DNA from: Komagataeibacter sp. FNDCF1
GTDB lineage: Bacteria > Pseudomonadota > Alphaproteobacteria > Acetobacterales > Acetobacteraceae
Direction of reading: 5' to 3'
NCBI RefSeq assembly: GCF_021295335.1
Contig: NZ_JAIWOT010000001.1
Location: 995,001-1,059,000 of the forward strand
DNA: 64,000 bases
The notes under the pieces are model-generated. The model ran no database searches and was not told where the DNA came from. It worked only from the letters and a program-made list of their open reading frames with translations. Of the stretch, positions 19,801 through 24,488 are shown piece after piece; positions within the stretch are counted from its first letter, which is position 1, and each line of letters begins with the position of its first letter. Position numbers and translations under genes: made by a program.

Positions 19801-21099
19801 ATGAGCGAGTCCGGAAAAACCGCCACAATGTCGCTGGATGGCAAGAATATCAGCCTGCCCATGCTGTCAGGCACGCTTGGCCCGGATGTCATCGACATCC
19901 GCAAGCTGCCCGCGCAGGCAGGGGTATTCACCTATGATCCCGGTTATGGCGAAACGGCTTCATGCTCCAGCAAGATCACCTTCATCGACGGTGAAAAGGG
20001 TATCCTGCTGCATCGCGGCTATCCCATCGCGCAGCTGGCCGAGCAGGCGACCTTCATGGAAGTGGCCTACCTGCTGCTCAATGGTGAACTGCCCAAGAAA
20101 ACCGAATACGACGCGTTCGTAAGTTCCATCAAGCATCACACGCTGCTGCATGAGCAGATCCGCAATTTCTTCAACGGTTTCCGCCGTGATGCCCACCCCA
20201 TGGCCATCCTGTGCGGCACGGTGGGGGCGCTGTCCTCCTTCTACCATGAAGGTCTGGATGTCTCGAACGCTGCCACCCGCTACCAGTCGGCGCTGCGCAT
20301 CATCGCCAAGATCCCGACCATTGCGGCATGGGCCTACAAATATACGCAGGGCGAGACCTTCGTTTACCCGCGCAATGACCTGTCATATGCGGAAAACTTC
20401 CTGTCGATGATGTTCGCCGTGCCCAGCGAGCCGTACAAGGTCAACCCGGTGCTGGCACGCGCCATGGACCGCATCCTGATCCTGCATGCCGACCATGAAC
20501 AGAATGCCTCCACCTCCACCGTGCGTCTGGCAGGCTCCACCGGTGCCAATCCGTTTGCCTGTATTTCGGCAGGCATCGCGGCCCTGTGGGGACCCGCCCA
20601 TGGTGGTGCCAACGAGGCGGTGCTGAAGATGCTGGCCGAGATCGGGCACAAGGACAACATCCCCGAATTCATCGCCAAGGTGAAGGACAAGAACAGCGGC
20701 GTGCGCCTGATGGGCTTTGGCCACCGGGTGTACAAGAACTTCGATCCGCGCGCGAAGATCATGCAGGCCACCTGTCATGAAGTTCTGGGCGAACTGGGGA
20801 TCAAGGACGACCCGCTGCTCGACCTTGCGATCGAACTGGAAAAAATCGCCATCCACGACGAATATTTCGTCAAGCGCAGCCTGTATCCGAATGTCGATTT
20901 CTATTCGGGCATCATTCTCAAGGCCATGGGCATTCCCACCAGCATGTTTACCGTGCTGTTCGCCGTGGCCCGCACCACGGGCTGGATCAGCCAGTGGAAG
21001 GAAATGATCGAGGAGCCGGGCCAGCGCATCGGCCGCCCCCGCCAACTCTATACCGGCGCGCCGGAACGCGATTTCACGCCGTTTGACAAGCGTGGCTGA
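19801..21099 (+). CDS. aarA: AarA, citrate synthase
   Basis: Type II (hexameric, Gram-negative type) citrate synthase of 432 residues that condenses acetyl-CoA with oxaloacetate. The active-site segments are [29 protein letters not shown] (near residue 305) and the Asp-bearing NVDFYSGI. A strong ribosome binding site (AAGAGGAG) precedes the ATG. In A. aceti the orthologue is the acetic-acid-resistance gene aarA. The 222 bases upstream contain an AT-rich patch (19678-19700) that may hold its own promoter, so expression may be partly independent of aarB. Confidence 0.95.
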
Positions 21100-21110
21100 A
21101 TAAAAAATTT

Positions 21111-21141
21111 ATGCCAGGCAGGTATCCTTCCTGCCTGGCAT
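21111..21141 (+). terminator. Strong hairpin after citrate synthase
   Basis: A perfect 12-base inverted repeat (ATGCCAGGCAGG and CCTGCCTGGCAT, loop TATCCTT) begins 11 bases after the aarA stop. It probably ends the aarA transcript. The T-rich side (AAAAAATTT upstream) would favour rho-independent termination on the minus strand, so it may instead protect the mRNA 3' end. Confidence 0.6.
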
Positions 21142-21217
21142 AACAGTCTGGTTTTCAGAAAATCGAATCACTTAGATTGATATTGTCATAACACATCGAC
21201 TAAGTCACCATACGGGC

Positions 21218-23158
21218 ATGGACCGTGCATATTTATCGATCGAATCATCTGAAGTTGAATTTACGAATAATAGCTATTTATTCGGATTATTAGCTCAGAA
21301 GCTTCCCTTTGCCATTGAGCCAACCCAAAGAGCCGCTTGGGATTACCAAATCAGGCATTTACGAGAACTAGCAGAACAACTGCCTGGTGCTCATTTTTTT
21401 ATGGAATTTCTTATTCCGCGGATGGGACGACGGGTTGATCTTGTTATCCTGTTTAAAGGGATAATTTATGTGATCGAATACAAAGTTGGCGCTTCCCAAT
21501 TCGATCAATCTAGTTTGGACCAAGTGTACGGTTACGGTCTAGACTTAAAACATTTCCACGAAACTAGCCATAATCAACGAATTGTGCCAATTCTTGTTGC
21601 AACACAAGCAAAGGAGTCGCATGAACCACACGTGCATTGGGATGCTGATGGTCTTTCCAAGCCTTTAAAAGTTACACCAAGCCTATTACCTGTGGTAATA
21701 AAACACATAGCACACTGTATAAATACATCGCCTTTGCCTGCGGAAAAATGGGTTAAAGGCCGTTACAAACCTACTCCAACCATCGTTGAAGCAGCTCAAG
21801 CGCTTTATCAAGGCCACGATGTTGACGAAATCTCACGTTCTGAGTCCGGGGCTGAGAATTTAACGCACACTGCAGATTACGTGGCTGAAGCCATTGAAAA
21901 TGCCAAACGCACACACCGTAAAATGATATGCTTTATTACTGGTGTCCCCGGCTCAGGCAAAACTCTTGCTGGTCTTAATATAGCCACATCTCGACAACGC
22001 ATGCATAGCGATGAGCATGCTGTTTTCCTATCCGGAAACGGTCCTCTTGTTGAGGTCCTGCGTGAAGCGCTAGCCCTTGATGCTGTTGCTCAAGCACATT
22101 TTAAAGGCCAACCATCAAGCAAGGTGGAAGAAAGGCGTCGCGCAAGCGCTTTCATTCAAAATATTCATCATTTTCGTGACGAGGCCCTTACGACAGATCA
22201 GCCCCCTATCGAAAAAGTTGTCATTTTTGATGAAGCTCAACGTGCATGGAACATTGAGCAAACATCTAAATTTATGCAGCAAAAGAAAGGACAACATGGT
22301 TTTTCTATGTCAGAGCCTAGATTTTTGCTGAGTGTAATGGACCGTCATACTGATTGGTGCGCTATTATCTGCCTTGTCGGAAATGGCCAAGAAATTAATA
22401 CTGGTGAAGCTGGTATTGAAGAGTGGCTTCGTACTCTGCAATGCTATTTTGCACATTGGCAGGTTCATCTACCCGGAACTTTAGTGCATTCTTGCTCAGT
22501 CTCAAACGAAATATTGACCCCCTGTTTGCATCTAGCCACCTCTATCCGTTCATTTCGAGCAGAAAGACTTTCTGATTTCGTCGGATATATGTTAAAAGGC
22601 GACAAAGAGAATGCTAAAAAAACTAAAGAAACACTGAATCATTATCCATTATTTATTACACGTGACTTAGCAAAAGCAAGGCACTGGCTAAGAAACAAAC
22701 GGCGAGGCAACGAACGTGCCGGGCTTTTAGCTTCATCAAATGCAAGCCGTCTCAAACCCTACGGTATTTTTGTTAAATCCCAAATCGAACCGACAAAATG
22801 GTTTCTTGCACGCCCTGATGATGTGCGATCATCAGATGCCCTAGAAGATGCTGCTACGGAATTTGACGTACAAGGACTAGAACTAGATTGGGCCTGTCTA
22901 TGCTGGGATGCCAATTTACGTCATGACGTACAATGGAAAGCGTGGCGCTTTGCTGGGACACGCTGGGGTCAAATCCATGATCCGATGCGCCAAGCATACC
23001 TTATCAATGCTTACCGCGTATTATTAACACGGGCACGACAAGGTCTTGTAATATTCGTTCCTCATGGCGATGCGCATGATCTCACGCGCTTACCAATCAT
23101 GTACGACAAAATTTACGATTTTTTAGTGACTTGTGGATTTCAGATATTAGAAATCTAA
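21218..23158 (+). CDS. Predicted PD-(D/E)XK nuclease fused to SF1/DUF2075 ATPase-helicase
   Basis: A 646-residue two-domain protein. Residues about 55-130 look like a PD-(D/E)XK nuclease: Glu63, Asp74 (GRRVDLVI), Glu87-x-Lys89 (VIEYKVG), then a QVYGYGLDL helix. Residues about 235-610 form a DUF2075/SF1-type motor: Walker A GVPGSGKT (242-249), Walker B FDEAQ (337-341), an Arg-containing SIRSFRAE (442-449), VQGLELD (551-557) and LLTRAR (601-606). Base composition is far more AT-rich than every neighbour, with many ATT, TTA and AAA codons, so recent transfer is likely. It stands alone between two hairpins with no partner gene. A DNA-targeting or anti-phage role is an inference from architecture; no substrate is known. 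Confidence 0.8.
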   Translation: MDRAYLSIESSEVEFTNNSYLFGLLAQKLPFAIEPTQRAAWDYQIRHLRELAEQLPGAHFFMEFLIPRMGRRVDLVILFKGIIYVIEYKVGASQFDQSSLDQVYGYGLDLKHFHETSHNQRIVPILVATQAKESHEPHVHWDADGLSKPLKVTPSLLPVVIKHIAHCINTSPLPAEKWVKGRYKPTPTIVEAAQALYQGHDVDEISRSESGAENLTHTADYVAEAIENAKRTHRKMICFITGVPGSGKTLAGLNIATSRQRMHSDEHAVFLSGNGPLVEVLREALALDAVAQAHFKGQPSSKVEERRRASAFIQNIHHFRDEALTTDQPPIEKVVIFDEAQRAWNIEQTSKFMQQKKGQHGFSMSEPRFLLSVMDRHTDWCAIICLVGNGQEINTGEAGIEEWLRTLQCYFAHWQVHLPGTLVHSCSVSNEILTPCLHLATSIRSFRAERLSDFVGYMLKGDKENAKKTKETLNHYPLFITRDLAKARHWLRNKRRGNERAGLLASSNASRLKPYGIFVKSQIEPTKWFLARPDDVRSSDALEDAATEFDVQGLELDWACLCWDANLRHDVQWKAWRFAGTRWGQIHDPMRQAYLINAYRVLLTRARQGLVIFVPHGDAHDLTRLPIMYDKIYDFLVTCGFQILEI

Positions 23159-23243: not shown

Positions 23244-23498
23244 TCATTCACACTCGCAGCCATTTGTCGGGCCGGAACGCTTCTGAATGACGTGATGGTC
23301 GATCCATTCCGACACCAGACGCCGTGCCTCGTTAAGCGAGGATTCGGGATGGTGGATCCGGTACAGCGTGGTACAGGCATGAAACGCCGATACATCGCTG
23401 GTCCCGACGCCACGCAGTTCCTGGTAGGCGGTGATGACGGCACGCTCACACTTGCGGGAGATGCGACTGTTTTCAACGGACACGATGCGATGATCCAT
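23244..23498 (-). CDS. Small orphan protein under a Fur-type promoter
   Basis: An 84-residue protein of unknown function, predicted soluble and mostly helical, with four cysteines including a C-terminal CECE. I do not recognise its family. It is supported as a gene by its promoter: a -35/-10 pair and a Fur box lie directly before the ATG. No Shine-Dalgarno sequence is visible between the Fur box and the ATG, so the leader is very short or the real start is slightly inside. A role in iron-starvation response is inferred only from the Fur box. It is convergent with the AT-rich nuclease-helicase. Confidence 0.6.
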   Translation of the reverse strand: MDHRIVSVENSRISRKCERAVITAYQELRGVGTSDVSAFHACTTLYRIHHPESSLNEARRLVSEWIDHHVIQKRSGPTNGCECE

Positions 23499-23726: not shown

Positions 23727-24488
23727 ATGCACGACGCCACGGGGAACGGGGCTGGACTTTCAACAGGGTCAACGGCGTGGGACCGTGATGCCGCGCTGAT
23801 GACGGCGCGCCTGCTGCTGGAAATAAAGGCTGTCAATTTCCGCCCCGATGATCCCTATACCCTGACATCAGGCTGGAAATCCCCGGTTTATATCGACTGC
23901 CGCCGCATCATCTTCTTCCCGCGCGCGCGGCAGAAGATCATGGAACTGGCGGTGGAAAAGATCGGCCGCCATGTCGGTTACGAAAGCATCGACGCGGTTG
24001 TGGGGGGCGAGACGGCGGGCATTCCCTTCGCCGCCTGGATTGCCGACCGCATGATGGCGCCCATGGCCTATGTGCGCAAGAAGCCCAAGGGTTTCGGCCG
24101 CAACGCACAGATCGAAGGTGATGTGCCCGAAGGCATGCGCACCCTGCTGGTGGAAGACCTGACCACGGATGGGTCATCCAAGGTACAGTTCGCCAATGCC
24201 CTGCGCAATGCCGGTGCGATCGTAGATCACACATTCGTTGTGTTTTTCTATGGCGTATTCCCCGGTGCCTACCGCACGCTGGCCGACATGAACATAAGCC
24301 TGCATGCGCTCTGCACATGGTGGGACGTGCTGGAGGCCTGTGCCGGCAAGCCCTACTTTGCAGAAAAAGATGCTGCCGAGGTCCGACGTTTCCTTGAAGA
24401 CCCCTGCGCATGGTCGGCAAGGCATGGCGGCGTGGGCAGTGCGGAGGAAGCGCTTGCCCTCAAGGCAAAGCGTGATGCCGGAGCCTGA
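23727..24488 (+). CDS. pyrE: PyrE, orotate phosphoribosyltransferase
   Basis: Converts orotate and PRPP to OMP in pyrimidine synthesis. The 253-residue protein has the PRPP-binding motif TLLVEDLTTDGSSK (near residues 135-148) and the substrate-loop region YVRKKPKGFGR. GRRGAGA-type ribosome binding sequence (GCCGGAGA) precedes ATG 23727. The first 25 or so residues are not conserved, and a start near 23799 is possible. It is 13 bases before murI and probably co-transcribed with it. Confidence 0.92.
   Translation: MHDATGNGAGLSTGSTAWDRDAALMTARLLLEIKAVNFRPDDPYTLTSGWKSPVYIDCRRIIFFPRARQKIMELAVEKIGRHVGYESIDAVVGGETAGIPFAAWIADRMMAPMAYVRKKPKGFGRNAQIEGDVPEGMRTLLVEDLTTDGSSKVQFANALRNAGAIVDHTFVVFFYGVFPGAYRTLADMNISLHALCTWWDVLEACAGKPYFAEKDAAEVRRFLEDPCAWSARHGGVGSAEEALALKAKRDAGA

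Follow-up and report, generated by a model that had tools for sequence, protein, structure and literature searches.

A PDC-S41-type nuclease-helicase gene inserted beside aarA in Komagataeibacter: a candidate single-gene defence system

Domain architecture of the inserted gene

A 64,000-nt stretch of the Komagataeibacter sp. FNDCF1 genome (contig NZ_JAIWOT010000001.1, positions 995,001–1,059,000; hereafter, the window) carries, directly after aarA, a single AT-rich gene that encodes a predicted nuclease-helicase (Table 1). The bounds of its open reading frame (ORF) are exact, with the ATG at position 21218 and the stop codon ending at 23158, giving a protein of 646 amino acids. An earlier note, made from the sequence alone, had singled out this gene for its low guanine-plus-cytosine (GC) content, and this was confirmed: the GC content is 0.435 (0.335 at third codon positions, GC3), whereas the 42 other window ORFs of at least 150 amino acids, collected by a simple rule, have a mean of 0.643 (standard deviation, 0.028), the next lowest being 0.580. 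The protein is a member of PDC-S41, a candidate for single-gene phage defence in PADLOC. It matched the PDC-S41 profile over the full length (E value 2.8e-267; residues 1–644 against profile positions 1–653 of 657; no curated PADLOC cut-off was available here), no difference from the family was found, and it was the sole match in its own genome at E ≤ 1. The gene family is therefore not new. The term “little-described” in the earlier note holds insofar as the name PDC-S41 was not found in the literature searched, which mostly excluded subscription papers, and fails insofar as the family is already a PADLOC database candidate.

Table 1. Features of the aarA region, in window coordinates
Feature	Position	Strand	Evidence or remark
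aarA (citrate synthase; name from the earlier sequence reading), left flank	19801..21099	+	900-base segment in 19/19 genus genomes
Hairpin after aarA, probably the aarA terminator	21109..21143	.	
AT-rich leader, arrived with the gene	21150..21217	+	Aligns in three 5' remnants; outside the aligned part at gene-free sites
PDC-S41-type nuclease-helicase gene, 646 amino acids	21218..23158	+	PADLOC PDC-S41 match, residues 1–644, 886 bits
N-terminal PD-(D/E)XK nuclease domain (predicted), residues 1–185 as modelled, core about 35–128	21218..21772	+	pLDDT 93.5; Foldseek Cdn1, McrC
Nuclease active-site residues E63, D74, E87-x-K89, Q102-xxx-Y106	21404..21535	+	Invariant in 57 sequences
SF1 helicase domain, Pfam SLFN-g3_helicase, residues 235–615	21920..23062	+	265 bits, cut-off 24
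Walker A, GVPGSGKT, residues 242–249	21941..21964	+	Alignment
Walker B / motif II, FDEAQ, residues 337–341	22226..22240	+	Alignment
Motif VI, YRVLLTRARQG, residues 599–609	23012..23044	+	R605 and R607 invariant in 57
Small ORF, right flank	23244..23498	-	

AlphaFold2 modelled the whole protein with a predicted local distance difference test (pLDDT) score of 86.1 and the nuclease domain alone with the score given in Table 1; the latter model runs helix, three strands, helix, strand, which is the order of the PD-(D/E)XK core. Foldseek searches with this domain returned Cdn1 (E value 5.5e-4) and McrC (3.3e-3), followed by Can2 and the R.BspD6I small subunit, all of which we take to be PD-(D/E)XK enzymes; the E values were modest, a single match lying at E ≤ 0.001. 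The residues E63, D74, E87, and K89, proposed in the earlier note as catalytic, were invariant in an alignment of 57 sequences (the window protein and 56 relatives, taken from 56 of the 80 loci described below; L012, L063, and L071 were without a closed ORF), as were Q102 and Y106, which that reading had overlooked. The core fold of the predicted model, together with the E, D, and ExK residues, thus places the domain among the PD-(D/E)XK nucleases, and the N-terminus without a nuclease fold that the note had named as fatal to its proposal was not what we found. A QxxxY motif after ExK is the consensus of RecB/Cas4-type PD-(D/E)XK nucleases, to which the invariant Q102 and Y106 assign the domain; the Cas4 profile itself gave a weak match (E value 0.017, residues 72–123).

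The C-terminal part matched the Pfam domain SLFN-g3_helicase (PF09848), formerly DUF2075, with 265.2 bits against a curated cut-off of 24 and with the helicase motifs intact, and it was accordingly accepted as a superfamily 1 (SF1) motor of this family. The intact Walker A, Walker B, and arginine motifs of the first reading were upheld, with G242, G245, G247, K248, D338, E339, Q391, R444, R605, and R607 invariant in the same alignment. In a wider set, E63, D74, E87, and K89 were present in 81 of 82 S41 rows (the other had a gap) and in all 27 rows of a sister clade from Acetobacteraceae, and the Walker residues G242, G245, G247, K248, D338, and E339 in all 82 and all 27, respectively. Among the sister rows, Q102 was kept in 24 of 27 and Y106 in 26 of 27, and in both groups the remaining checked positions were kept save for single gaps. 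Foldseek matches of the whole model were SLFN11 (E value 6.9e-10), SLFN14, RecBCD chain D, and Upf1, with template-modelling (TM) scores near 0.3, so that the motor class is supported and no close structural match was obtained. The protein is thus predicted, from the model and the conserved residues, to consist of a RecB-like nuclease followed by an SF1 motor.

Two alternatives to a DNA-directed defence enzyme arise from this architecture. Pfam names the motor Schlafen group 3, and SLFN11 and SLFN14 were the best whole-protein fold matches, which would suit a Schlafen-like RNA nuclease acting on tRNA or rRNA and halting translation upon infection. We consider this very improbable, because the N-terminal domain is similar to nucleases of restriction systems and to CRISPR-ancillary nucleases, and no Schlafen or AlbA RNase core domain was among the 14 Pfam matches listed at E ≤ 1, so that the protein was not counted as a Schlafen protein; the phrase “schlafen group 3” was not found in the literature searched. 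Meanwhile, the ExK and QxxxY residues fit RecB-like nucleases, and the presence of RecBCD chain D and AdnAB among the fold matches would likewise suit an accessory cellular nuclease-helicase for DNA repair or recombination, of the RecB, AddAB, or Dna2 type, whose mobility is incidental. The latter seems to us rather unlikely, and the distribution of the gene, described next, bears on it.

Insertion site, distribution, and mobility

Across 19 Komagataeibacter genomes, the own genome included, the gene beside aarA was intact in 2 and reduced to a 5' remnant in 3, and 14 genomes lacked it at this site. The interval from the aarA stop codon to the next conserved stretch is 2143 bp in the window; in 13 of the 18 other genomes it is 147–257 bp, and in G302 (L043) 341 bp, in each case without a match to the gene. 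Intervals of 650–915 bp were found in G222, G254, and G303, where only the leader and the gene's 5' portion show similarity (E values 1.6e-17, 1.5e-6, and 1.0e-9; 0 of 100 shuffles each; the last two matches comprise about 100–170 bases). The remaining genome, G307, which we took to be K. swingsii (L053) with the same ORF, has the gene intact in this position. These gene-free sites confirm the insertion beside aarA that had been claimed from the window alone. Acquisition by the window strain alone was rejected, because of the intact K. swingsii copy at the same site and the 5' pieces in three congeners. The leader, common to all three remnants, points to a single insertion as the likelier history. 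The intact copies were nevertheless placed in different groups of the aarA tree, among gene-free sites, and the three site states needed only four changes; the states were barely more clustered than when shuffled, an equally low value occurring in 43 of 200 shuffles. Fewer losses would have to be assumed if the gene had passed between congeners or had entered this site twice.

The flanking hairpins of the earlier note are present; they do not, however, look like the ends of an element. A search for flanking direct repeats and for inverted-repeat pairs around the gene found neither, and element ends were rejected. By eye, hairpins after aarA also occur at gene-free sites, and the downstream hairpin is a 5-pair stem. 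Between the window and K. swingsii genes, the nonsynonymous divergence (dN) was 0.068 and the synonymous divergence (dS) 0.709, a ratio of 0.10; the same pair of genomes gave dN 0.023 and dS 0.387 for aarA, and dN 0.011 and dS 0.586 for the ORF at 23727. The intact copies are under purifying selection, with their function kept in these two species, and the gene is evidently not new to the window strain.

In GC content, both the window gene and its K. swingsii counterpart (L053:10001–11941) fall about 20 points short of their flanks or neighbours, and AT richness is not a trait of their closest relatives elsewhere. The 17 nearest loci outside the genus have a GC content of 0.54–0.64, and the gene lies more than 10 GC points below its flanks at 9 of 76 other S41 loci. 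An AT-rich donor among the sampled relatives, as the source of the AT richness, was not supported by the GC content of these relatives.

A scan of the genome collection returned 341 relatives, and the figures for S41 loci refer to the best 80 of these (47–88% identity). They comprise 50 loci from Pseudomonadota, 29 from 16 further named phyla, and one without a phylum name; 76 are bacterial and 4 archaeal. Matches at E ≤ 1e-60 occurred in 3 of 190 alphaproteobacterial genomes, the own genome included, and 1 of 14 named control genomes had a match. Copies were also present on plasmids, two of Persicobacter (48% identity) and two of Bacillota (29%). Phylogenetic analysis placed the window gene and its K. 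swingsii counterpart in a group of 19 sequences (starred in the tree) that stands clear of the sister clade; 15 of the 19 come from Sphingomonadales, three from Acetobacteraceae, and one from Samsonia. The tree was built by a quick method; L001, which is the window gene, and the loci that were broken, partial, or duplicate (L025, L031, L067, L068, L074, and L084) were excluded. It should be read with caution, since the long branches of the outgroup and of the sister clade join each other. The tree and the patchy distribution support the horizontal acquisition proposed earlier, and the gene is a mobile accessory gene that has spread horizontally. The rarity of the S41 clade in its class, its occurrence on plasmids and on a viral contig, and its absence from 14 of the 19 genus genomes argue against a cellular repair enzyme.

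The viral contig, from IMG/VR, carries a copy 69% identical to the window protein, and the ORFs beside it resemble, by eye, lysis, tail-fibre, and Bro-N genes. Tyrosine recombinases adjoin 5 of the 80 loci and serine recombinases 4, again by eye. Such surroundings would fit a gene that serves a prophage or plasmid, through superinfection exclusion, element competition, or replication. This explanation seems to us improbable, because the window gene occupies, by itself, a position in the chromosome that is common to two species. The viral locus L031 is apparently the Samsonia locus L054, in which case the viral contig does not count as independent. An unverified phage scaffold carries a 44% identical copy amid ORFs that, judged by eye, resemble a restriction cluster.

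In Polynucleobacter sp. UK-Gri1-W3, a 631-amino-acid distant relative lies directly downstream of the PDC-S41 gene (L088:11913–13808), with weak matches to PDC-S41, AbiO, and Nhi. In Novosphingobium flavum (L069:12240–16283), the adjoining ORFs are, by eye, deaminase-like, an extra PurA-like, and RNase H-like, and none of the three had a PADLOC match at 1e-10.

Proposed activity and comparison with known systems

On balance, we think it somewhat more likely than not that the single protein made from this mobile accessory gene is an ATP-driven DNA translocase-nuclease, whose most probable task is to attack invading phage or plasmid DNA; in this we infer the DNA substrate, the ATP coupling, and the benefit in defence. 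By analogy with Nhi, Hna, and AbpAB, the SF1 motor would load onto single-stranded or end-bearing intermediates of invader DNA, and it would feed this DNA to the N-terminal PD-(D/E)XK nuclease. The leading guess, on the analogy of Nhi, Hna, and Gabija, is that self DNA may be spared through the sensing of phage single-stranded DNA-binding protein (SSB) or of DNA ends.

PDC genes as a class have been termed unexplored candidates (PMC11514479), and the accessible parts of the literature mentioning DUF2075 contained nothing on defence. Nhi of Staphylococcus epidermidis is reported to be a single-gene nuclease-helicase for which phage escape is tied to SSB (PMC12904381), Hna of Sinorhizobium meliloti is a single-stranded DNA exonuclease stimulated by phage SSB (PMC13381803), and AbpAB is activated by phage Gp32 (PMC10732053). 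The single-gene nuclease-helicase layout is common to Nhi and the window protein, and the precedent cited in the earlier note therefore stands as an analogy. It does not extend to family membership: the Nhi profile matched the window protein at residues 224–259 only (36 residues round Walker A, E value 4.4e-5), short of the full length, and a search of the own genome with this profile gave three matches, the window gene not among them. Hna likewise combines a motor and a PD-(D/E)XK nuclease in one protein; however, its described architecture is an N-terminal superfamily 2 (SF2) helicase with a C-terminal nuclease, whereas the window protein has an N-terminal nuclease and an SF1 motor, and it was not assigned to Hna. 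Neither of these failed assignments is an argument against working like Nhi or Hna. Gabija (GajAB) and Hachiman (HamAB) are reported also to direct a nuclease and a helicase against phage, but each uses two genes (GajA and GajB, HamA and HamB), whereas the window system is a single gene.

Sister clade, defence-gene neighbourhoods, and significance

Several observations weigh against a defensive role. The first is that the PDC-S41 profile also matches the sister clade (699 bits for the one member tested), whose members share the catalytic residues and motifs of the window protein. They differ from it in forming a separate clade (26 sequences in the tree, support 99), in occurring in about half of the sampled family genomes, in their flank-like GC content, and in their partly conserved neighbours. 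A match at E ≤ 1e-10 was found in 158 of 299 Acetobacteraceae genomes, the own genome included; among the matches listed, two were close (the own copy, and G149 at 63% identity) and the others were 36–44% identical. The sister copies (L003–L030) occur mostly once per genome, and their GC content is about that of their flanks (mean difference +0.014, 23 loci). In 17 sister neighbourhoods (3 of 20 fetched gave no focal gene), the upstream neighbour belonged at 8 loci to one family, which by eye resembles acyltransferases or FemAB-like proteins; a further family was present at 6 loci and a RidA-like family at 4. Judged from these comparisons, the sister clade looks like a vertical, settled chromosomal gene. 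Because it is present in about half of the family genomes with partly shared neighbours, the PDC-S41 label is no proof of defence, and its prevalence, mostly single copies, and the neighbour family at 8 of 17 loci speak for a cellular repair enzyme. The earlier note had held that relatives spread through vertical lineages beside housekeeping genes would count against its proposal; this pattern is partly seen in the sister clade, and not in the clade of the window gene. The same architecture thus occurs in two forms, a mobile gene of scattered distribution and a gene that looks settled within the family.

The second concerns the neighbours of the S41 loci. Defence genes do stand beside some of them: Gabija GajA and GajB adjoin L066, PD-T4-4_A lies near L057, an Avs3a-like protein near L058, and PDC-S06 near L061, and a relative with 29% identity, carried by a plasmid of Exiguobacterium, adjoins McrC and an AAA ATPase. 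Among 272 near neighbours, 12 received defence labels, 10 in a set of 140 and 2 in a set of 132; the corresponding figures were 4 among 148 far neighbours and 2 among 148 genes picked at random in 20 of these genomes. The enrichment beside defence genes for which the earlier note had proposed a survey was therefore not shown (near vs. random, p = 0.078, one-sided Fisher test; near vs. far flanks, p = 0.28), and this likewise leaves room for a repair enzyme. The p value against random genes becomes 0.41 if all four random mad3 matches, entered once in the main count, are counted. The neighbour set nearest to the window alone (10 of 140) gave p = 0.014, in an unplanned split. Nor was there a conserved partner, the commonest neighbour family occurring at 7 of the 80 loci. 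Lastly, absence from 14 of the 19 genus genomes is compatible with defence and also with a gene of little value.

The count used PADLOC system labels at E ≤ 1e-64, where the lists are complete, on the assumption of one protein per label. Before counting, we removed 49 of 321 near neighbours (L121–L132), the neighbours of L053, L084, L133, and L134, 12 of 160 far genes, and 6 of 154 random genes. Neighbour ORFs came from a simple rule of length and GC by position, and some may be in wrong frames. At 1e-15, PADLOC families numbered 103 and 22 in the two near sets, 84 in the far set (148 genes), and 18 in the random set (148 genes); the 87 neighbours of sister genes yielded 7, and 97 genes drawn at random from Acetobacteraceae yielded none. 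Because one Gabija pair can supply most of the 103 families (GajA 54 and GajB 33, at the looser 1e-10), system labels were counted instead of families.

The anti-phage or anti-plasmid module of the earlier note thus stands as to its acquisition, its nuclease, and its motor, whereas its defensive role is one that we infer and that the neighbourhood counts did not strengthen. We also entertain, as a possible but doubtful extension, that PDC-S41 does act in immunity as a single-gene nuclease-helicase, crossing phyla and reaching into archaea, and that one of its branches has been domesticated in Acetobacteraceae as a settled chromosomal gene. If so, the mobile immune form and the settled cellular form would be a direct pair, with which one could ask how a nuclease against invader DNA turns into a genome-maintenance enzyme, or the reverse. 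The listed defence candidate consists of one gene with defined catalytic residues in a tractable host, and would be simple to test. Furthermore, PDC-S41 calls in Acetobacteraceae may often be settled chromosomal genes, and counting them as defence could mislead surveys.
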